A DNA stretch of 46,173 bases. Source: Clostridia bacterium. Lineage in GTDB: Bacteria > Bacillota > Clostridia > Christensenellales > QALW01. The stretch spans positions 1-46,173 of the forward strand of contig JAFVVO010000001.1 of NCBI GenBank assembly GCA_017502165.1, written 5' to 3'. Below, piece after piece: positions 893 to 10,329 of the stretch (its first letter is position 1; every line of letters starts with the position of its first letter). Position numbers and translations under genes: made by a program. The notes under the pieces were generated by a model, which searched no databases, was not told where the DNA came from, and saw nothing but the letters and a program-made list of their open reading frames with translations.

Positions 893-1252
893 ATGAAAAC
901 GCCTAAAATTTTCGAAAGTGAATACCGTTTCTGCCTTATTTTGTGGGAGAACGAGCCTATCAACAGCACCGCTTTAGTAAAATTGTGTAAAGAAAAATTA
1001 GATTGGTCAAAAACCACAACTTACACAGTTATTAAGCGGTTGGCTGACAGAAAGGTGTTGAAGAACGAAAACACCATTGTAACTTCTCTTATTTCAAAGG
1101 ACGAAGCACAGGTATCTGAAATTGACGAGCTTTTAACAAAGAAATTTGAAAATTCTCTTCCTCAATTTATTGCCGCTTTTGCCAAACAACAGAATTTAAG
1201 TGACAGCGAAATTGAAGAAATCTACAAAATCATTCACAAAGAGGTTAAATAA
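893..1252 (+). CDS. blaI: BlaI/MecI/CopY family transcriptional repressor
   Basis: This 119-residue winged-helix protein has the BlaI layout. Its N-terminal half carries ALVKLCKEKLDWSKTTTYTV followed by a KRLADRKVLK wing, and its C-terminal half is helical for dimerisation (LLTKKFENSLPQFIAAF). BlaI-type repressors bind palindromes over their own promoters and are inactivated by proteolysis when the partner membrane protease senses a signal. The partner gene starts on the last base of this stop codon (TAATG), so the two are translationally coupled. AAAGGAG at 879-885 sets the start, and the operator at 837-878 implies autorepression. The target need not be a beta-lactamase: none is present and the partner sensor is unusual. 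Confidence 0.88.
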   Translation: MKTPKIFESEYRFCLILWENEPINSTALVKLCKEKLDWSKTTTYTVIKRLADRKVLKNENTIVTSLISKDEAQVSEIDELLTKKFENSLPQFIAAFAKQQNLSDSEIEEIYKIIHKEVK

Positions 1253-3768
1253 TGCAAGAGCTTTTCATACAAATACTTAATTCGGGAATAATTGCGAGCT
1301 ATATTATTGTTGCGGTTATTCTTATTAGGCTGATATTTAAGAAGCTTCCTAAGCGGACACTTGTATTGTTGTGGGCTCTGGTTGCAATAAAGCTGATTCT
1401 TCCTTTTTCTTTCGAGAGCTCATTGAGCTTGGTGCCTGAAAGCAATCCAATTCCTCAAACAATTATTGCAACCCCTGCCCCCGACGTTAACTCGGACACT
1501 GACGTTCAGCCGATAATTCCGCCGACAGACTTTGAAGACGGGTTTGCGCCGTCAGTACCGAACAATAATGTGACCGTTCCCGATAATAATGTAACCGTTT
1601 CACAGCCAAACTACACTTTCATTGCTTTATGTGTGTGGCTTGCAGGTGTAGGCGTATTGCTTATCTACGGAGCCGTTTCATATGCACTTCTCTATAGGCG
1701 AGTGCTCGGTGCAACACCTCTGTTTGACAACATCCGTCAGCACGAAAAGGTGCACTCCCCCTTTATTTTAGGGTTTATTAAGCCAAAAATTTACGTGCCG
1801 TATAACCTTGACGAAAGCACCCTTAAAAACGTAATTTTGCACGAAAATGCCCATATAAAGTATTGTGACCATTTAATTAAACCCTTTGCTTTTATTTTGC
1901 TTACGGTTTACTGGTTTAATCCTTTGGTTTGGGTTTCATATATTCTTCTGTGCAGAGATATTGAATTTGCCTGCGACGAAAGAGTTGTTGTTCAGCTTCC
2001 TGAAAATGCACGTTCAAATTACGCAGAAGCTCTTGTTAAATGCGGAGTAAACAGATTGCGCATTTCTGCCTGCCCCATTGCCTTTGGCGAAACGGGCATT
2101 AAAGAAAGGGTTAAAAACATAATGAACTACAAAAAGCCTGCATTTTGGATATTGATTACTGCTGTCTTACTCACCATTGCTATTACAGTTTGCTTCTTGA
2201 CCGTAAACCCCGAGGATTCGGCAGATAAAACCACCGACAGTTCCCCCACTCCAACGATTTCGGCATTACCATCGCAAACTCCTTTAACCCCCGAAACGCA
2301 TATGACTCCCGACCCAAGTCCAACGCCCATAAAGCCTAAAAATGATATGGCAAACGAAGAATTGGCGCAAGTTGTAGCAAAGCTTTTGCGTGTGCCGGAC
2401 AAAGAAGGTATAACCCACGATATAAGTGATAAATTCTATTGGGAAGCCGCCGAATCATATTACAAATACGTAGCATTCTATGAAAACGATGAAGTAGTTG
2501 CTAGTGCATGCGTTGACCCACGTGACGGTGAATTATTACGCAATATATTTTTATATTCAGCTCCGGAACCGATAACGCCTACGCCCACCCATACCAATAC
2601 CTCTCTTTCAACAGCTACAGCAACGCCAACCGCAAAGCCCACAGCTACTCCTACCAAAGCTCCCGTAAAGCCCACTCCCACGCCTGTGCCTACGCCTCAA
2701 CCCTTCACCGCAACAACATATGTTCCCCAAGGCGGAGTTTACACGTCAAGGGCTACGGGCAGGGTATATAATAGTGGTGAAAAGTTTCCCACTTTAGCAG
2801 CAGGTGATGTTTTCATCTACGGTGATTATGAATATCGTTATAAAAAGCAATCTCAAGTAGATAGTTGGGAGAATTGTACAGAAGCATATTTTGATTGGGG
2901 TGTACGCGTACTTGACGACAGTAAAACTTCTTACGGCAGAATGCTTGACGAAATAAACGGTGCGCCCGTAAACAACTTATTAAAGGCCTTCCAAGGATGC
3001 AAAAATCTAAAAACAGCGCCTATAATTTCACAAAAAGCCCTAAGTCTTTCCGCGGCTTTTCGCAATTGCTATGCTCTTGAAACCGCACCCGTTATACCTA
3101 ACGGTGTAAAATGGTTAACAAGTTCTTTCCAGGGCACTGCTATTAAAACTCCCCCTGCAATACCAAGCAGCGCAACCGATGTCGCTTATATGTTTGCATT
3201 TTGCGAGTCATTGGAATATGCGCCTGTGTTTCCTGCTGGCATAACTGGTATGACGCGTACTTTTATTGATTGCACTTCATTAACGTACGTACCTGATCTC
3301 CCTAACGGAATAACCGATTTAAGCTATACATTTTCCGGTTGCACTTCCCTTAAAACCGCTCCTAAAATACCTGATAGTGTGACAGTTTTGTGCGAAACCT
3401 TTATGGACTGCACTTCTTTAACCACTGTGCCGAATTTCCCCAAAAACATAGAATTTTTGTCTTCAACATACGCCGGTTGTTCTTCTCTTAAGAGCATTCC
3501 CAGTCATTTGCCGGAAAAAGCAAAATCTATAGACTACGCTTTTGATAAATGCACTTCGCTTAAAAACGCCCCCGTTATACCCAATTCAGTTTTCTCAACG
3601 CAAGGTGTTTTCCGCGGTTGCACGTCTTTAACCGGGAATGTGGTTGTTCATGCAAACCCCACGTATTACAGTAATATGTTTGGAGGCATAAATTTCAAAA
3701 CACAAAATATTACTTTATCAGGTTCATCTACTATGCTTGCTCAATTGCGTGCAACGGGCATAAATTAA
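1252..3768 (+). CDS. M56 (BlaR1-type) membrane metalloprotease with extracellular BspA-like leucine-rich repeats
   Basis: This 838-residue protein starts with BlaR1-type membrane segments (about 13-29, 36-52, 123-145 and 208-232). The gluzincin motif HENAH is at 197-201 and DIEFACDE at 236-243 supplies the third zinc ligand region, so the protease looks active. A last membrane helix (about 297-317) leads outside, where two Pro/Thr-rich linkers flank a small domain (about 365-440). Residues about 576-815 form nine or ten repeats of 22-24 residues of the type F-x-G-C-T-S-L-K-x-A-P-x-I-P, as in BspA/DUF285 surface proteins. A classical BlaR1 carries a penicillin-binding domain there; none is seen. 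It probably senses a ligand or surface through the repeats and relieves repression by the upstream BlaI protein. The substrate and signal are unknown. Confidence 0.85.
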   Translation: MQELFIQILNSGIIASYIIVAVILIRLIFKKLPKRTLVLLWALVAIKLILPFSFESSLSLVPESNPIPQTIIATPAPDVNSDTDVQPIIPPTDFEDGFAPSVPNNNVTVPDNNVTVSQPNYTFIALCVWLAGVGVLLIYGAVSYALLYRRVLGATPLFDNIRQHEKVHSPFILGFIKPKIYVPYNLDESTLKNVILHENAHIKYCDHLIKPFAFILLTVYWFNPLVWVSYILLCRDIEFACDERVVVQLPENARSNYAEALVKCGVNRLRISACPIAFGETGIKERVKNIMNYKKPAFWILITAVLLTIAITVCFLTVNPEDSADKTTDSSPTPTISALPSQTPLTPETHMTPDPSPTPIKPKNDMANEELAQVVAKLLRVPDKEGITHDISDKFYWEAAESYYKYVAFYENDEVVASACVDPRDGELLRNIFLYSAPEPITPTPTHTNTSLSTATATPTAKPTATPTKAPVKPTPTPVPTPQPFTATTYVPQGGVYTSRATGRVYNSGEKFPTLAAGDVFIYGDYEYRYKKQSQVDSWENCTEAYFDWGVRVLDDSKTSYGRMLDEINGAPVNNLLKAFQGCKNLKTAPIISQKALSLSAAFRNCYALETAPVIPNGVKWLTSSFQGTAIKTPPAIPSSATDVAYMFAFCESLEYAPVFPAGITGMTRTFIDCTSLTYVPDLPNGITDLSYTFSGCTSLKTAPKIPDSVTVLCETFMDCTSLTTVPNFPKNIEFLSSTYAGCSSLKSIPSHLPEKAKSIDYAFDKCTSLKNAPVIPNSVFSTQGVFRGCTSLTGNVVVHANPTYYSNMFGGINFKTQNITLSGSSTMLAQLRATGIN

Positions 3769-4206: not shown

Positions 4207-4386
4207 ATGCAGAACGATTGCTTACAAGATAATCAGACACAGTGTATAAACTCTTTGCCCTTGGCAAAAGCATACGTTCCCACTCAAAGCTTTTCTGCCC
4301 CCGTTTCTCCCGAAGAAGCGCTAAAAATGGGCACTCTTTGGCGTGAACTTTACCAGCCTTATTTTGTAGGAGGTACTCCAAGATGA
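4207..4386 (+). CDS. cotJA: Spore coat-associated protein CotJA
   Basis: This short protein (59 residues) ends with SPEEALKMGTLWRELYQPYF, the conserved core of CotJA. The start is the ATG at 4207 behind GAAAGGG; an in-frame TTG at 4189 overlaps that site and is less likely. The stop overlaps the cotJB start (ATGA), showing translational coupling. cotJABC is expressed in the mother cell and its products become part of the spore coat. A small hairpin (AGCGGA/TCCGCT, 4162-4179) lies in the leader, and AATACAAG at 4153-4160 is a weak candidate for a sigma-E-type -10. Confidence 0.86.
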   Translation: MQNDCLQDNQTQCINSLPLAKAYVPTQSFSAPVSPEEALKMGTLWRELYQPYFVGGTPR

Positions 4387-4628
4387 CTCAACAGCAAATG
4401 CTTAAAAAGCTTCAGGAGTTAAGCTTTGCACTTGTGGAGCTTAACCTTTTTCTCGATACCCACCCCGACAACGCCCGTGCCCGTGAGCTTTATAACACCT
4501 ATTCAAAGCAAATGCACGATTTGCGCAATGAATACTTTGAAAAATACGGCCCAACTATGAATTTTGGCGTTTGCCCTGCAGGTGACAGTTTCTCATGGAT
4601 AAACTCACCTTGGCCTTGGGAAAATTAA
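4383..4628 (+). CDS. cotJB: Spore coat protein CotJB
   Basis: This 81-residue protein matches CotJB throughout: an N-terminal helix (LLKKLQELSFALVELNLFLD with slight variation), then DTHPDNARARELYN, and the aromatic tail SWINSPWPWEN. The ATG overlaps the cotJA stop by four bases, and cotJC follows after 12 bp. CotJB is a coat-assembly component of the cotJ operon with no known catalytic activity. Confidence 0.93.
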   Translation: MTQQQMLKKLQELSFALVELNLFLDTHPDNARARELYNTYSKQMHDLRNEYFEKYGPTMNFGVCPAGDSFSWINSPWPWEN

Positions 4629-4640
4629 GGAGGTTTATTT

Positions 4641-4838
4641 ATGTGGATTTATGAAAAGAAGCTGCAGTTTCCCGTAAACATTAAAAACGGTGACTTGCAA
4701 ATGGCAAAATTTCTCTTTGCCCAGTACGGCGGACCCGATAGTGAGCTTTCCGCTTCTCAACAATATTTAGCACAGCGCTACACCATGCCCACCCCCGAAA
4801 CAAAGGCTCTTCTTAATGACATCGGTATTGAAGAATAA
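4641..4838 (+). CDS. cotJC: CotJC (manganese-catalase-family coat protein), N-terminal part, interrupted by an inserted element
   Basis: MWIYEKKLQFPV opens a clear CotJC behind an AAGGAGG site, but the frame stops after 65 residues, where the family has about 190. The natural sequence runs ...LLNDIGIEE and then meets a TAA supplied by the inserted element. The remaining 126 residues lie in the same frame at 9949-10329, after 5,113 bp of foreign DNA. Joining the parts at the shared TGAAGAA gives IGIEELAHWEM and a 191-residue protein. This half contains Glu35 and Glu65, expected manganese ligands. As it stands the product should be inactive unless the element is excised. Confidence 0.93.
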   Translation: MWIYEKKLQFPVNIKNGDLQMAKFLFAQYGGPDSELSASQQYLAQRYTMPTPETKALLNDIGIEE

Positions 4839-4856
4839 AATTGTTTATGTTATAAT
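4828..4856 (+). promoter_or_regulatory. Promoter at the left end of the element, -35 inside the junction repeat
   Basis: TTGAAG at 4828-4833 and TATAAT at 4851-4856 are separated by 17 bp, with a TG one base before the -10 (extended -10). The -35 is built from cotJC codons and the junction repeat; the -10 is in the element. It would drive the small gene at 4879 and the serine recombinase. In an excised circle the -35 would become CTGAAG, a poorer match. Confidence 0.6.
4829..4835 (+). repeat. Left junction repeat of the cotJC element (attL core)
   Basis: TGAAGAA here is identical to the right junction copy at 9942-9948. The preceding bases are GGTAT here and GGAAC on the right, so 10 of 12 positions agree. 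Both copies encode the Glu-Glu codons of the CotJC metal-binding motif in the same frame. A short shared core is normal for serine recombinases. Confidence 0.85.
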
Positions 4857-4878
4857 AGTGTTCAAAGGAGGGGTTATT

Positions 4879-5220
4879 ATGAGGACCTACGGATATTATC
4901 ATAACTATGAAGAAAAGATAAGAAACCGATTGCGATACTTTTGTCGCCACAATCTAACATTAGAACAAGCACAAGATTGGCTCTCATTCTTTGACGATAA
5001 CAAAGAGTTATTTTCCCGTCTATGCCAAGCATACAATGAATATAAAGTAAGTTGTGGCAGGGAGTATTTATGTGTGATAACCAATTTGGATGCTTTGTTT
5101 AAAACCCCCGAAGCAGAAGAAAAGTTCATTAAGGAAATCAAAGAGTACATAATGGACGTAATTGGTATCAAGAGAGAGGATGTTAAAAATGGCACAAATA
5201 CAGATAATAGAGCCGAATAA
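4879..5220 (+). CDS. Small protein of unknown function overlapping the serine recombinase
   Basis: This protein has 113 residues from the ATG at 4879, which follows an AAGGAGG site; the frame opens further upstream but without a ribosome site. It is charged and helical (EEKIRNRLRYFCRHN, LTLEQAQDWLSFFDD, EAEEKFIKEIKEYIMDVIGI), with no membrane segment and no recognised domain. It is the first gene inside the left junction and overlaps the recombinase start by 32 bp, so the two are made together. That position fits an accessory recombination factor (a directionality factor), but only by context. Confidence 0.7.
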   Translation: MRTYGYYHNYEEKIRNRLRYFCRHNLTLEQAQDWLSFFDDNKELFSRLCQAYNEYKVSCGREYLCVITNLDALFKTPEAEEKFIKEIKEYIMDVIGIKREDVKNGTNTDNRAE

Positions 5221-6943
5221 AACAACCCTCAAAACCGACGATAATAAACCACATAGGGTTTGTGCATACTGCCGCGTTTCAACCGACGATACCGACCAAA
5301 AGAACTCTCTTGAAACTCAAAAGCAATTTTTTGCGAGGTATTTTAATCTTCACTCTAATTGGACTAATGTCGGCATATTCGCAGATGAGGGCCTTTCGGG
5401 AACGTCGCTTGAAAAACGAGACGATTTCAACCGAATGTTGTTTGAAGCAAGGCACGGCAATATTGACATTATTCTTACAAAAGAAGTTTCCCGTTTTTCC
5501 CGTAATGTTCAACACCTTTTGAATATCGTTGAAGAACTACGAAATAAGGGTGTTTATATTTGGTTTTTATCTGATGACATCAACACCGAGAAAAACGACT
5601 ACCGAGAGAAATTGACGCAGATTGCGACTAATGCCGAACAAGAAAGTTTGAGAACTTCTCGCCGTGTTCGTTGGGGGCAGCAACAACAAATGCAACTCGG
5701 TGTCATTTTCGGTCGTAAAGAAATGTACGGGTATAATATTGTTAAGGATGACAACGGTATACAACACTTTGAAATCATACCCGAAGAAGCTGAAGTCATT
5801 AAAAAGATTTTTGAGTGGTTTGCAAGTGGCGAAGGTACACACCGAATTGGCAGACGATTAGAGCAACAAGGTATTACTACCAAGCGATATAAAAACGGGT
5901 GGAGCAATACTGTTATACTTCGCGTTTTACGGAACGAAAAATATGTGGGCGACTTGGCACAAGGTAAAACCTACACTCCCGACCCACTCACCCACAAAAA
6001 GAAATATAACACGGGGCAATCTTACCGATTTTATATAACAGACCACCACCCCGAAAGCGCTATTATTGACCGAGATTTATGGAATAAGGTGCAAACAATT
6101 TTAGAGGAAAAAGCACCGAGTGAAGAAATCAAGGCAAAGCACTCAAACCGCTATTGGACAAGCGGCAAGGTGTATTGTGGTTTATGTGGTGGCAGATATG
6201 TCAGTTATGTAAAGAAACAAAAGAATGTGCCTTATCGTGCTTGGGTGTGCTTTGAAAATCACCAAAGGGGCAATTACAAGCAAATAACACTTGATACGGG
6301 CGATACTGCCCTTGTGGGTTGTAATGCTCTGCGAGTGAATGACCGAGTGTTGAAAACGGCAGTTCACGATATTATTACGGCATATATCATCCCTTATAGA
6401 GAAACCTTGCTCAATGAAATGAAAAAGGAAATTGCCGAACTTTCAAAGCCAAAGGACAATACCAAGCAGATTAGCAAACTGCAAACGGCACTTGAAAGGA
6501 AACAAGGTGAAATCTCAAAATTGACGCTAGCTTGGTCGGGTGGCTCCGTGCCTGATATTGCCTATTATTCAAGCATAGGAACACTTAACAAGCAATATGA
6601 AGATTTACAAGCAGAACTCCGTAAAATGCAAGAACAAGGCAATTCTGCAAGTGCAGAGATACAAATATATACCGAATATATAGAACAGCTTGAGTCCGTG
6701 CTTTCCCTTTCTGAGAATGATTTAAACGAAGCATTTTATGAAAGGGTTACAAAACAGATTTTTGTTTACCCCCTTAATTTGTTGGAGTTCCGTTTGTCAT
6801 TTATTCCAATGCCTATTTATATGCAATATAAGACATCGGGCAGAGGTAACGACTACACGGCAGAGTTCACTATCCTATCAAAGGAACAGTTTGCAGAACT
6901 GCTTGAAAAAGCACCTAAAAACGAAGTCGCACAGTCTATTTGA
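5189..6943 (+). CDS. Large serine recombinase (site-specific integrase/excisionase)
   Basis: From the ATG at 5189, nine bases after GAGAGAGG, the protein has 584 residues. The resolvase domain opens with VCAYCRVSTDDTDQ, nucleophile Ser31, and continues through DEGLSGTSLEKRDDFNRML and LTKEVSRFSRN. A recombinase domain follows (about 185-290, FGRKEMYGYNIV to LRNEKYVGDLAQGKT). A zinc ribbon comes next (CGLCGG, later VCFENH and GCNA), then a coiled coil (about 405-500), the parts large serine integrases use for site choice and synapsis. The gene sits about 350 bp inside the left junction, as expected for the enzyme that put the element into cotJC. Upstream in-frame starts overlap the ribosome site. 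All core motifs are intact. Confidence 0.93.
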   Translation: MAQIQIIEPNKTTLKTDDNKPHRVCAYCRVSTDDTDQKNSLETQKQFFARYFNLHSNWTNVGIFADEGLSGTSLEKRDDFNRMLFEARHGNIDIILTKEVSRFSRNVQHLLNIVEELRNKGVYIWFLSDDINTEKNDYREKLTQIATNAEQESLRTSRRVRWGQQQQMQLGVIFGRKEMYGYNIVKDDNGIQHFEIIPEEAEVIKKIFEWFASGEGTHRIGRRLEQQGITTKRYKNGWSNTVILRVLRNEKYVGDLAQGKTYTPDPLTHKKKYNTGQSYRFYITDHHPESAIIDRDLWNKVQTILEEKAPSEEIKAKHSNRYWTSGKVYCGLCGGRYVSYVKKQKNVPYRAWVCFENHQRGNYKQITLDTGDTALVGCNALRVNDRVLKTAVHDIITAYIIPYRETLLNEMKKEIAELSKPKDNTKQISKLQTALERKQGEISKLTLAWSGGSVPDIAYYSSIGTLNKQYEDLQAELRKMQEQGNSASAEIQIYTEYIEQLESVLSLSENDLNEAFYERVTKQIFVYPLNLLEFRLSFIPMPIYMQYKTSGRGNDYTAEFTILSKEQFAELLEKAPKNEVAQSI

Positions 6944-6949
6944 TATCTA

Positions 6950-6977
6950 TTGATTTTTTATCAAAATATGTTATAAT
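6950..6977 (+). promoter_or_regulatory. Promoter of the nitroreductase-like gene
   Basis: TTGATT at 6950-6955 and TATAAT at 6972-6977 with a 16-bp spacer lie just after the recombinase stop. AAAGGAG at 7006-7012 then precedes the ATG. Confidence 0.6.
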
Positions 6978-7019
6978 ATAATCAGTTTGATAAACTTGAA
7001 TTTGTAAAGGAGTGGTTCA

Positions 7020-7676
7020 ATGACTATTAAAGAAGCTATGAAAGAAAGACATATGGTAAGAAAATATGTTGATAAGAAAATACCAGAGGATTTGGTATCA
7101 AAATTAAATGAAAGAATAGAAGAAAATAATAAAAAATATGATTTATCAATCAAATTGATGCTTGATAATGATAAAGCAGTAAATAGTATTATTAAATTAT
7201 TACTAGCAAAGGGTGTTAAAAATTATATTATTTTAGCAGGAAACGATACTGATGATTTAGCAGAAAAACTAGGATATTCAAGTGCTGATATAATGTTATA
7301 TGCACAAACACTAGGATTAAACACTTGGTATGTTGGTGGCACTTTTAATCGTGGAGTATCAAAATATGTTCCAAATAAAAAAGTAATTGGAATAGTAGCA
7401 ATTGGATATGGAATAAATAATGGTGTAGCACATAAATCCAAAACTTTAGAAGAAGTATCAAGTTATGATGGAACTATGCCTGAGTGGTTTAAAAACGGAA
7501 TCCTAGCATCATTACTTGCTCCGACAGCTCTTAATAAACAAGATTATAGAATCGTTGGCAAGGGTAATAAAGTAAAAATAGAAATAGATAATGGAATATT
7601 TACAGGAGCAAATAAAGGTCTGATTAAATATCATTTTGAATTAGGTGCAGGTAAAGAATCCTTTGAATGGGAGTAA
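7020..7676 (+). CDS. Nitroreductase-family protein (TM1586-like), cargo of the element
   Basis: This 218-residue protein starts with the nitroreductase opening TIKEAMKERHMVRKYVDKKIP and later carries a duplicated half-domain (SLLAPTALNKQDYRIV), as in the putative TM-nitroreductase subfamily of flavin-dependent oxidoreductases. The probable cofactor is FMN with NAD(P)H; the substrate is unknown. Its codons are far more A/T-biased (AAA, ATA, GAA, AGA, TTA) than those of the recombinases on either side, suggesting separate, recent acquisition. It has its own promoter and is followed by two strong hairpins, so it is an independent unit. No role in spores or recombination is evident. Confidence 0.8.
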   Translation: MTIKEAMKERHMVRKYVDKKIPEDLVSKLNERIEENNKKYDLSIKLMLDNDKAVNSIIKLLLAKGVKNYIILAGNDTDDLAEKLGYSSADIMLYAQTLGLNTWYVGGTFNRGVSKYVPNKKVIGIVAIGYGINNGVAHKSKTLEEVSSYDGTMPEWFKNGILASLLAPTALNKQDYRIVGKGNKVKIEIDNGIFTGANKGLIKYHFELGAGKESFEWE

Positions 7677-7715
7677 TACAAATTACAATTTGTCGGTCAG
7701 TTTAATAAATATACG

Positions 7716-7750
7716 AACACCTTATGACTTTGGTCATAGGGTGTTTTTGT
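7716..7750 (+). terminator. Terminator after the nitroreductase-like gene
   Basis: AACACCTTATGAC (7716-7728) pairs with GTCATAGGGTGTT (7733-7745) with one G-T pair, followed by a T run. Confidence 0.85.
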
Positions 7751-7753
7751 TTA

Positions 7754-7786
7754 TGGTCGGGACCTTTTGGGTCCCGACCAATTTTA
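7754..7786 (+). terminator. Second hairpin in tandem, possible backup terminator
   Basis: TGGTCGGGACC (7754-7764) and GGTCCCGACCA (7770-7780) form a perfect 11-bp stem with a 5-base loop, followed by ATTTTAT. Confidence 0.65.
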
Positions 7787-8275
7787 TACCTTTTCTTGAT
7801 TTTTATTTAAAACTTTGTCATGCTATATTTGTATTCAATAATACAACGAAGGAGCAATATTAGAGAAAAAATGGAGGAGGAATATTTATATCTTTGAAAA
7901 TCACACAAAAAAGAAAACTACACACATTGAAACCCAATCATGTGTTGTGTGCCGCCGCTTGACTGCAAACGAAATCTCAAAGGCACACCACCATGATGTT
8001 CAATCTTAAAAATGTATATCGGCATTTTTGGTTGAACACCCCAACCGACAATATAAGGTCGGTTTATCGGCGATACGATATATCGCTGTTTTGGGAAAAC
8101 GGAGCGACGGCACCGTTTTCTTTCATCTGAACAAATACGATACATATATTATTTTAGGGTGTCGGTCAATGGGTCGGCACCTTAAAAATTACATAAATTA
8201 TGTCGCCATTAACGGCGCGACGTTTACGATCGCGACGACAATGGCGACAAATACAACGAAAGGAGCGACAAAACA
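7787..8275 (+). other. Non-coding, hairpin-rich leader upstream of the tyrosine recombinase
   Basis: No convincing gene lies here. A possible promoter (TTGTCA near 7815 with an AATAAT-like box near 7837) is followed by consecutive inverted repeats. GGTTG/CAACC (8030-8034/8042-8046) competes with AACCGAC/GTCGGTT (8043-8049/8058-8064). Then come GCGATA/TATCGC (8070-8086), GAAAACGG/CCGTTTTC (8095-8120, then TTTC), a GGTG...CACC stem at 8159-8182, and TGTCGCCATT/AATGGCGACA (8201-8210/8240-8249). ATACAACGAA followed by GGAGC occurs at 7841 and again at 8251. One reading frame is open on both sides of a TAA at 8007, so a decayed small gene is also possible. Mutually exclusive stems ending near a terminator-like hairpin suggest attenuation of recombinase expression. 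Confidence 0.5.
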
Positions 8276-9163
8276 ATGTCAAAATCATTATTCTATCAAT
8301 TCAATTCTGCATTAGATATGTGCTTTGTTTTGCACTTTGACAAGCATAGCGACAAGCACAACCCACAAGCAGATAGCGAACATATAATAAAATCATTATC
8401 GGCAAAGGGCAACCTTAAAGACTTTGCTCACGATTTCGCCGCTTTTATAAAAAACGAGTACGGAGTTAAGCAAGTAAAGGAAATAACCTCCGATATGTGT
8501 CAATCGTATATTGAGAAAAAGACGTCTGAGGGTTGCTCTTTGAAAACGATTAAGACATATCAAAGCAATCTGCTTAAAATCTCAAAGTGTGCAAACAAAG
8601 CTTTCAATATCCGTACTGATTATTCAGTATCGGTTGACGAAAGCAAGATTGAGAAAACCGAAACGATAAAGCAATACTCTTTTACCCGTGCAGAAATGGA
8701 AAAGATACTTGCTGCACCTCGTTCTTGCGATAGCCTTACTGCCTTAAAATTCGCTTACCAAACGGGTGTTAGGGTAAATACTCTTGAACGACTTGAAGTA
8801 CGTCATATAGACTTTAAGAACGGCGAAATCACCATTTACAAGGACAAAGGAAATAGAACAAGGGTTTTGCCTATGAGCGAAGAAACGGCGAAGCTGCTCC
8901 GTGAACAAATAAAAGGCAAGAACCCACAAGACCGAGTTTTTGCGGTCCGCAAAGGGTCGGTCAATCGTTATCTTCGTCGCCGTTGCGAAAAGTTGAATAT
9001 ACGAACACCGAACGGCGAAGTCAAGAGTGGGGTTCACTCTATCCGTAAGTTATGGGCTGAAGAAAATGCCGAGCGACATGGAACGGCAAAAACGATGGTC
9101 GCGCTCGGTCACGGCGAAGATAGAAAAGACCTTGAAGATACATACCTGCATAGTAAAAAATGA
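8276..9163 (+). CDS. Tyrosine recombinase (phage integrase family)
   Basis: This 295-residue protein has an N-terminal SAM-like DNA-binding domain (about 40-110) and a catalytic domain with every key residue present: Arg166 in TGVRVNTL, Lys191 in the beta-hairpin (YKDKGNRT), His254 and Arg257 in VHSIRK, His279 in LGHGED, and the nucleophile Tyr290 in LEDTYLHS. AAAGGAG at 8259-8265 sets the start. It is shorter than many phage integrases, which usually have an extra arm-binding domain. It is the second recombinase of the element. It could act on another site, resolve circular forms, or be left from an earlier nested insertion. The stop codon lies inside the terminator stem. Confidence 0.92.
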   Translation: MSKSLFYQFNSALDMCFVLHFDKHSDKHNPQADSEHIIKSLSAKGNLKDFAHDFAAFIKNEYGVKQVKEITSDMCQSYIEKKTSEGCSLKTIKTYQSNLLKISKCANKAFNIRTDYSVSVDESKIEKTETIKQYSFTRAEMEKILAAPRSCDSLTALKFAYQTGVRVNTLERLEVRHIDFKNGEITIYKDKGNRTRVLPMSEETAKLLREQIKGKNPQDRVFAVRKGSVNRYLRRRCEKLNIRTPNGEVKSGVHSIRKLWAEENAERHGTAKTMVALGHGEDRKDLEDTYLHSKK

Positions 9164-9189
9164 GGACTTGAAAAAAGTTCTCATTTTTT
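9158..9189 (+). terminator. Terminator of the tyrosine recombinase gene
   Basis: AAATGAGGACTT pairs with AAGTTCTCATTT (one G-T pair) around a GAAA-type loop, then a T run. The stem begins within the last codons of the gene. Confidence 0.82.
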
Positions 9190-9534
9190 CTTGACAAATA
9201 AAAAATAATAAGTTATTAATTTAAATACTTACTACAAAGTAATAAATTAGTTACTTATATATTAAGTAATAGATTTAAATACCTATATTAAGTTTTAAAG
9301 TTATTCACTTATATTAAGGTATTAAATTATACTGTCTTAAACAAGGTTAAACTTACGGACTTAAAGAAAAATGAATTATCATACTTAACTGAAAAAACTT
9401 TGTAATAAGTAAGATGCTTAAATGTTAGGAGTGATAGAAAAAACAATTAGTATAGTAAAACCTTTGAATACAACAACACGCATATTAAAGAGTTATATGG
9501 AAACCACTAAATTCTTTAACAAGGAGGTTTCTAT
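9190..9534 (+). other. AT-rich intergenic tract with repeats, no gene seen
   Basis: About 345 bp, strongly AT-rich over its first 200 bp, lie between the integrase terminator and the next gene. Beyond the TATATTAAG repeats (separate entry), AAGTAA...TTACTT forms a palindrome near 9237-9256 and AAGTAATA recurs twice. Only an AAGGAGG site at the right edge, for the gene at 9535, is clearly functional. Confidence 0.5.
9258..9318 (+). repeat. Three direct repeats of TATATTAAG with 26-bp spacing (iteron-like)
   Basis: Exact copies begin at 9258, 9284 and 9310, a constant step of 26 bp. Sequence between copies is AT-rich and only partly alike. Regular spacing suggests a bound protein array such as recombinase or replication-initiator sites; function is unknown. 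Confidence 0.6.
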
Positions 9535-9864
9535 ATGAAATCTAATAAATTATCAAACGAAAAAAACAATAACTTTTTAGGTGGTTATATTACCTACCTT
9601 AAACGATATGACGGTACTGACGGCGACGAAAGAAAATACATATCAATAAAAATGAAAGACGGCGACGACACTATTGATATAATGATTTTCAAACAAAGTG
9701 GTTATAAAAAGAAATATCCTAACCCATTGGTAAAACTCGTCATTGATGCCTACGAACAAAAAATACCGATTGCCTGTGTCTATAACGAGCAACACGAAAG
9801 CAATGTAATGGAGTGTGTTTATACAAACTTTTCCGTTAATGCTTCCGTAGCTGAAGAAGTGTAA
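9535..9864 (+). CDS. Unknown small protein at the right end of the element
   Basis: This 109-residue protein starts behind AAGGAGG. The middle looks beta-rich (GGYITYLKRYDG, KYISIKMKDGDDTIDIMIF), then PNPLVKLVIDAYEQKIPIACVYN, which could suggest a small OB-like or binding fold, but no family is recognised. There are no membrane segments or cysteine clusters. It is the last gene before the right junction and has its own terminator, so it is a clear expressed unit. A role in DNA binding at the adjacent repeats would be guesswork. Confidence 0.72.
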   Translation: MKSNKLSNEKNNNFLGGYITYLKRYDGTDGDERKYISIKMKDGDDTIDIMIFKQSGYKKKYPNPLVKLVIDAYEQKIPIACVYNEQHESNVMECVYTNFSVNASVAEEV

Positions 9865-9871
9865 ACCAAAG

Positions 9872-9908
9872 AAAGACTGTGCGAAAATGCACAGTCTTTT
9901 ATTATTTT
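9872..9908 (+). terminator. Terminator at the right end of the element
   Basis: AAAGACTGTGC (9872-9882) pairs with GCACAGTCTTT (9889-9899), followed by TTATTATTTT. It ends 34 bp before the right junction repeat and would stop element transcripts from entering cotJC. Confidence 0.87.
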
Positions 9909-9941
9909 GCTATATGCACAATAAAAATCTTATTTAGGAAC

Positions 9942-9948
9942 TGAAGAA
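9942..9948 (+). repeat. Right junction repeat of the cotJC element (attR core)
   Basis: This second TGAAGAA is preceded by GGAAC. It is read Glu-Glu in the cotJC frame and followed at once by CTCGCCCATTGG (Leu-Ala-His-Trp), which continues the family motif. Confidence 0.85.
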
Positions 9949-10329
9949 CTCGCCCATTGGGAAATGCTGGGCACAATGATCTATCAGCTTACCAAGGATG
10001 CAACCCCTGAAGAAATGCGCGCCGCAGGTCTTGGCGACTATTACGCAACCCGCGGTAAAGGTGTGTTCCAGTCAAGCCCCTCAGGCGAACCCTGGTCAAG
10101 CGCATATATTCAGGTGCTTGACGATCCAATCGCCAACCTTACCAACGATATGGCGGCAGAACAAAAAGCCCGCGCCGCCTACGAGCGCTTAATGATGATG
10201 ACTCGTGACCAAAGCGTCATCGAACCTCTCGCCCTTCTCCGCGAACGTGAAATAGTCCACTTCCAACGGTTTGGCGAAGCACTTATGAGCTTACAAAACA
10301 ACTGTATGAAAGGTTATGCAAAGGGATAA
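9949..10329 (+). CDS. cotJC: CotJC (manganese-catalase-family coat protein), C-terminal part after the element
   Basis: The segment supplies the missing 126 residues of CotJC: LAHWEMLGTMIYQLTKDATP, AAGLGDYYA, DPIANLTNDMAAEQKARAAYE and LREREIVHFQRFGEAL. There is no ribosome site before it; the first ATG in frame is at 9964, so any product made without excision would lack the His68 region. After rejoining to 4641-4835 the protein has Glu35, Glu65, His68, Glu136 and His169. The 33-residue gap between the last two equals that between the Glu148 and His181 ligands known for Lactobacillus plantarum manganese catalase. No frameshift or stop is present, so this half is kept under selection or was interrupted recently. 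Confidence 0.92.
   Translation, partial: LAHWEMLGTMIYQLTKDATPEEMRAAGLGDYYATRGKGVFQSSPSGEPWSSAYIQVLDDPIANLTNDMAAEQKARAAYERLMMMTRDQSVIEPLALLREREIVHFQRFGEALMSLQNNCMKGYAKG

Follow-up and report, generated by a model that had tools for sequence, protein, structure and literature searches.

Only a few sporulation genes are known to undergo programmed excision of DNA, and each was discovered singly. The closest described elements interrupt sigK (skin), spsM (SPbeta), gerE (gin), spoVFB (vfbin) and yabG (yin), and from them we take, by analogy, the mother-cell timing proposed below (PMC4191935; PMC5595907; PMC10747680; PMC6957869). Here we describe a split cotJC gene, encoding a predicted spore-coat catalase, in a stretch of 46,173 nucleotides (the window; positions 1 to 46,173 of contig JAFVVO010000001.1) of an uncultured gut Clostridia bacterium (assembly GCA_017502165.1; 1.83 Mb, 96% complete). 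The gene is cut by an inserted element encoding a large serine recombinase (LSR), and cut cotJC genes recur in other Clostridia. We consider it likely that the LSR integrates its element at Gly62 of cotJC, that excision in the mother cell would restore the gene, and that cotJC serves as a general docking gene in Clostridia.

The split gene and its crossover point

The two pieces of cotJC lie on the same strand 5.1 kb apart, and the order cotJA-cotJB-cotJC is kept (Table 1). Positions 1-66 of the Mn_catalase profile (PF05067) were matched by 4641-4835 (E 1.1e-15) and positions 66-197 by 9946-10326 (E 1.4e-26); the two halves are an exact contiguous split of this profile. Where its native frame begins, the 3' piece has no start codon. 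With the Mn_catalase domain, the operon order and a length of about 190 residues, the rejoined product has the features of CotJC, a predicted catalase. A search with Pfam Coat_F, which is the wrong family, gave no match. The original prediction, that cotJC is split by a 5,113-bp recombinase element with the LSR directly inside its left end, was borne out by the contiguity of the profile halves, by the inserted length of 5,113 bp and by the LSR gene, which starts about 365 bp from the left attachment site (attL) and carries Resolvase and Recombinase domains. Its wider proposal, that this is a serine-recombinase element in a mother-cell gene and that exact removal would restore the gene, also gained support, and both Spo0A and SpoIVA are encoded in the genome.

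As the crossover point we took a dinucleotide common to both ends of the element about which the arms of the reconstructed attP form an inverted repeat. By this criterion the crossover was located at GG (4824-4825 and 9937-9938), the first two bases of the Gly62 codon. The arms of the inverted repeat about this GG were matched at 11 of 18 positions in the window, and the next best offset gave 8 of 18. In all 14 of the other two-ended elements inserted at the same site (site A, below), the attP arms were matched at 10-15 of 18 positions at the same GG offset; any other shared dinucleotide gave at most 8 of 18 (15 site-A elements with both ends on one locus). The core originally predicted, TGAAGAA, is indeed repeated at both junctions (4829-4835 and 9942-9948), embedded in the longer imperfect repeat GGnAnTGAAGAA, with the crossover GG 5 bp to its left. 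As the crossover itself TGAAGAA was ruled out by the attP symmetry and by the conserved Thr codon, both of which point to GG.

With the crossover at GG, the joint reads DIG-TEELAH, with Thr, instead of DIG-IEELAH. The joint frame proposed earlier (IGIEE + LAHWEM, 191 residues) was thus right in being unbroken and 191 residues long, and was to be corrected from Ile to Thr. The predicted joint, DIG-TEELAHWEM, matches the uncut relatives G002-G004, and from attL and the right attachment site (attR) exact excision is predicted to restore an open cotJC. The DNA of the predicted joint is GACATCGG followed by AACTGAAGAACTC, that of the predicted circle junction TTATTTAGG followed by TATTGAAGAATAA, and the predicted joint-spanning peptide is NDIGTEELAHWEM. 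By analogy with Mn catalases, E65 and H68 of the TEELAH motif are putative metal ligands.

Recurrence, insertion sites and integrity of the pieces

Six site-A LSRs were scanned against GTDB genomes, one per species, and the best 80 loci were taken; most loci come from metagenome assemblies. A cotJC piece was found in the same locus for 68 of the 80, in most of them no more than a few hundred bases away from the LSR, and at least four of the remaining 12 stop at a contig end near the LSR. Intestinibacillus massiliensis Marseille-P3216T is also among these 12, yet its own cotJC is in four pieces. Named cultured strains with a cut cotJC include Lactonifactor longoviformis DSM 17459, Ruminiclostridium papyrosolvens C7, Roseburia sp. 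1XD42-69 and Lachnospiraceae COE1; in L. longoviformis DSM 17459 the gene carries a single element of 9.0 kb. The search of related genomes called for by the original prediction gave uninterrupted cotJC in G002-G004, of which G002 is of the same genus, and a closest LSR that is 85% identical to that of the window and is found at the corresponding place in a distant host (L081). In another genome of the genus, G001, the same codon is interrupted by a 13.4-kb element that differs from the one in the window but has a related LSR (47% identity). Within the same order (396 genomes), about 20 of the about 80 genomes with a cotJC-type gene were found by hand count to have at least one cut copy. The elements range from 2.4 to 55 kb, and at least five LSR families (A, A2, B, B-like in G321, and C), with a mutual identity of only 20-30%, are found on cotJC. 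The pattern is therefore far wider than first proposed, extending to dozens of genomes, at least five LSR families and four insertion sites.

Since the window and many of the loci come from metagenome assemblies, an assembly or binning artefact has to be weighed. The same structure with lawful attachment sites was found in independent assemblies and in named cultured strains, among them L. longoviformis DSM 17459 and I. massiliensis Marseille-P3216T, and we regard such an artefact as hardly credible.

Site C lies after GGP, at codon 32; site A is the Gly62 codon, and its variant form falls within TEE/LAH, a few codons further downstream. Site B is in the Glu136 codon (LAAE/QKAR), where GA gave the best attP symmetry in all five elements tested, and site D is in the Glu175 codon (HFQRFGE/AL), where GA was best or tied-best in three of three, the symmetry being weak. 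All four sites are near codons that we presume to specify Mn ligands. More than one element may occupy a single gene. The A and B elements are found together on one contig in L087, and G414 has three cotJC pieces on a single contig. In I. massiliensis Marseille-P3216T, elements of 24, 43 and 7.3 kb are inserted at C, A and D, and the four intact pieces stand in order on one contig. In each of 13 loci, the stretch of about 32 codons that separates site C from site A is present as an internal piece, open and conserved. Some elements are minimal and retain a full-length LSR frame within 2.4 kb (L116), 2.9 kb (G005 and L097) or 3.3 kb (L112).

Two further genomes showed less regular structures. 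In G180 (L044, L045) cotJC is apparently cut at three sites; for the piece of codons 36-61, no match was obtained in this genome with a back-translated pattern. In G082 (L068, L069) two long contigs end in cotJC near site B with an apparent overlap of about 27 codons, as an assembly of coexisting cells with and without the element would give, which is suggestive only. At the contig break inside cotJC of G082 there is no divergence of the sequence, and for this reason the break was left out of the insertions counted.

Each of the nearly 50 3' pieces found (31, 3 and 20 in three sets, 7 of the last 20 being repeats, together with four tails at site B and the pieces of Intestinibacillus and COE1) was open to the stop codon or to a further insertion and kept its motifs. 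Decayed C-terminal halves in relatives, for which the original prediction had asked, were looked for and none was found. As a decayed half is harder to detect by similarity, 21 genomes were selected by LSR, 5' piece or internal piece instead; an intact 3' piece turned up elsewhere in 16 of them and fragments in one, and four metagenome-assembled genomes (MAGs) lack it. The genomes without a clear 3' piece are MAGs or a draft, and the named cultured strains examined have theirs. For the pair G000/G001, the ratio of nonsynonymous to synonymous substitution rates (dN/dS) was 0.05 for the 3' half and 0.085 for the 5' half, both ratios including the time before insertion. A dN/dS test of long residence on pairs sharing one element (G213/G063) was unusable, the LSR being much younger than the host divergence. 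That all pieces found are intact speaks for a gene that is routinely rejoined, and excision in the mother cell, as in sigK, spsM, gerE and yabG, would be the simplest way.

Proposed excision and its alternatives

Integration would proceed by LSR-mediated recombination between attP and attB at the GG of the conserved Gly62 codon. In the mother cell of a sporulating pair, recombination of attL with attR by the LSR, aided by a directionality factor, would release the element as a circle and restore the exact gene for the 191-residue CotJC, while the forespore would retain the integrated copy. Where two or three elements occupy one gene, all of them would have to leave before the coat enzyme is made. 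Used in this way by unrelated LSR families, at four sites in conserved motifs near putative Mn-ligand codons, cotJC would be a general docking gene. As a gene of the cotJ operon, cotJC is regarded as a mother-cell gene with no use in other cells. The split gene, the attachment sites, the recombinase, the recurrence and the intact pieces are seen in the sequences; that the element is excised, when this happens, that a directionality factor takes part and that rejoining is needed we infer, the timing from this role of cotJC and from the examples of sigK, spsM, gerE, spoVFB and yabG.

Alternatively, cotJC may be a plain integration hot spot, in which the conserved motif codons provide a predictable attB, a dispensable coat gene is inactivated, excision serves only transfer, and the pieces are intact through fast turnover. 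Several observations favour such a hot spot and weigh against mother-cell excision. The elements move between species, with synonymous divergence (dS) of the LSR far below that of host cotJC; for G213/G063 the dS was 0.045 for the LSR and 1.02 for the cotJC 5' piece. As LSRs are often far more alike than host genes, many insertions appear to be recent, some elements are recent horizontal arrivals, and the intactness of the pieces could partly reflect youth. Some hosts carry a second, uncut cotJC. The excised form was not seen: the window's own assembly holds no second, uncut cotJC, and no circle or attP was detected in IMG/VR or in 18 host genomes with the attP of one common family as query, the window's own attP not being searched. 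The genome matches to that attP pattern were attR or near misses. In contrast, fast turnover accounts poorly for nearly 50 3' pieces with none decayed, for intact internal pieces in 13 of 13 loci, for two and three elements stacked in a gene with all pieces intact, for elements shrunk to about the recombinase alone, as expected if selection keeps excision, and for the convergence of at least five LSR families on one gene. Overall we judge the hot spot to be unlikely, though worth keeping in mind. Rejoining is argued for most strongly by the short internal pieces, which are intact, by the stacking of elements and by the retention of the recombinase in minimal elements.

Uncut copies in the same genome were ruled out as excised joints, because they are paralogues. 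Several Lachnospiraceae (L244-L250 and their split partners) have two cotJC paralogues, either of which may be the cut copy, and the split piece of L093 resembles the paralogue that is uncut in L134.

The Pfam domains of the recombinase in the window stand in LSR order, the zinc ribbon scoring 24.4 bits, just under the 25.3-bit cut-off, and the N-terminal YCRVSTD motif, whose serine we take to be the catalytic serine of the family, is invariant in six aligned LSRs. The open reading frame (ORF) of 113 residues directly before the LSR has relatives adjoining the LSR in L081, L082, L084, L085, L087 and L089, and is a possible directionality factor. The only good promoter before this ORF is the sigma-A-like site just inside attL; by the consensus scan, the number of such sites in the region was not above that in shuffled sequence. 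As this promoter looks vegetative, the 113-residue ORF may not be the timed factor, which may be encoded elsewhere, and this too weighs against mother-cell timing. A sigma-A-like promoter directly before the ORF and the LSR would fit random excision, restoring cotJC in some cells by phase variation or bet-hedging without sporulation control, and the yin element of C. botulinum was reported to be excised whatever the time point (PMC10747680). Against this, the known intervening elements are timed to sporulation, and cotJC is regarded as useful only in the mother cell. Random excision is a slim possibility in our view.

Going further than excision of a single element, we lean slightly toward regarding cotJC as a DNA-level multi-exon gene in many Clostridia, in which unrelated serine-recombinase elements sit at up to three of the four fixed sites near putative Mn-ligand codons. 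Before completion of the spore, the mother cell would have to remove them all so that the coat catalase gene is spliced together. If true, mobile DNA across gut Clostridia would have one coat gene as a common docking site, with about a quarter of the cotJC-bearing genomes in one order affected, several recombinase families converging and up to three elements to be removed per gene. This would explain the frequent 'broken' cotJC in genomes, supply natural LSR sets with known attB and attP, and open the question of why mobile elements favour genes that are used only in a cell without descendants.

The features of the locus are collected in Table 1. The nitroreductase-like gene is AT-rich and followed by two terminator-like hairpins, and looks separately acquired within the element. 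The tyrosine recombinase was not found in the other cotJC loci compared and may be cargo of a nested second mobile element; the 109-residue ORF had no counterpart in these loci. By its position just inside attR, the hairpin would keep transcription of the element out of the cotJC 3' piece. Among the five ORFs of the element, no phage structural family was matched in Pfam or PHROG, the only phage-related matches being to integrase families, and the structural, packaging or lysis genes by which a prophage is recognised were not found. The G001 element (L009, G001:C20; 3968-6692 and 9077-15016) carries, as judged from inspected translations, a response-regulator, sensor-kinase and AgrB-like set and an RHS-repeat-like protein of 1979 residues; the cargo of elements on cotJC can thus include genes for signalling and possibly for competition. 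At 1252-3768, ahead of the cotJ operon, an 838-residue protein resembles, on inspection only, a fusion of a BlaR1-type M56 peptidase with a leucine-rich-repeat-like part.

Table 1. Features of the split cotJC locus (window coordinates; aa, amino acids)
Feature	Position	Strand	Evidence
cotJA	4207-4386	+	Pfam CotJA PF11007, E 6.3e-13
cotJB	4383-4628	+	Pfam CotJB PF12652, E 2.1e-28
cotJC 5' piece, codons 1 to 62, ending at crossover GG	4641-4825	+	Pfam Mn_catalase; attP symmetry for crossover
Inserted element, 5,113 bp	4824-9936		attL/attR comparison and attP inverted repeat
Sigma-A-like promoter TTGAAG-17-TATAAT, just inside attL, toward recombinase operon	4828-4856	+	Consensus scan, 10/12 matches
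113-aa ORF directly before LSR, possible recombination directionality factor	4879-5220	+	Relatives in same place
Large serine recombinase, 584 aa	5189-6943	+	Pfam Resolvase E 1e-28, Recombinase E 1.6e-22
TM1586-type nitroreductase-like cargo gene	7020-7676	+	Pfam PF14512, E 2.4e-57
Tyrosine recombinase, 295 aa, cargo or second recombinase	8276-9163	+	Pfam Phage_integrase, E 3.6e-18
109-aa ORF, no assigned family	9535-9864	+	No Pfam or PHROG match
Terminator-like hairpin just inside attR	9871-9900	+	13-pair stem with T-rich tail
cotJC 3' piece, codon 62 (GG) to stop	9937-10329	+	Pfam Mn_catalase; frame open to stop

Comparison with known intervening elements

In the literature searched, which excluded subscription papers, supplements and preprints, no report was found that names cotJC as an insertion target. 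The convergence of diverse LSRs on one target gene resembles the site-specific LSR families of Durrant et al. (PMC10083194), and the searched text of that study makes no mention of cotJ, catalase or spores.

Like skin in sigK of Bacillus subtilis and Clostridioides difficile, the cotJC element has a serine recombinase at its end, interrupts a mother-cell gene and is predicted to leave that gene exactly rejoined. Unlike skin, its target is the gene of a coat enzyme and not of a sigma factor, several sites and stacked elements are found in one gene, the 5.1-kb element gave no phage structural gene match, and its excision is a prediction. SPbeta in spsM of B. subtilis likewise interrupts a mother-cell envelope gene that is not a regulator by an LSR element, but SPbeta is a full prophage, whereas the cotJC element is 5.1 kb long without recognised phage structural genes (PMC4191935). 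Gin in gerE of B. cereus ATCC 10987 is also a non-phage element with serine recombinases in a mother-cell gene; it is 28.6 kb long with three serine recombinases, in contrast to one LSR and one tyrosine recombinase within 5.1 kb and a different target here (PMC5595907). Yin in yabG of C. botulinum V73 is likewise a clostridial element whose recombinase gene lies just inside it, following the 5' piece and sharing its orientation; yin was reported as unique to one strain, whereas the elements in cotJC recur across Clostridia (PMC10747680). Vfbin in spoVFB of B. weihenstephanensis, as far as it is cited in PMC10747680, is similarly an excisable element in a sporulation gene, but in a different gene and as a single case.

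The features of an intervening element that we found at the cotJC locus are a mother-cell sporulation gene that is cut, a recombinase located at the end of the element, matching attL and attR, and a distal half free of decay; from these, the cotJC element is a probable member of the sporulation gene-intervening elements. Compared with the known members, it is new that cotJC is the target, that the elements occur so broadly in Clostridia, that four sites close to putative Mn-ligand codons are used and that elements are stacked within one gene.

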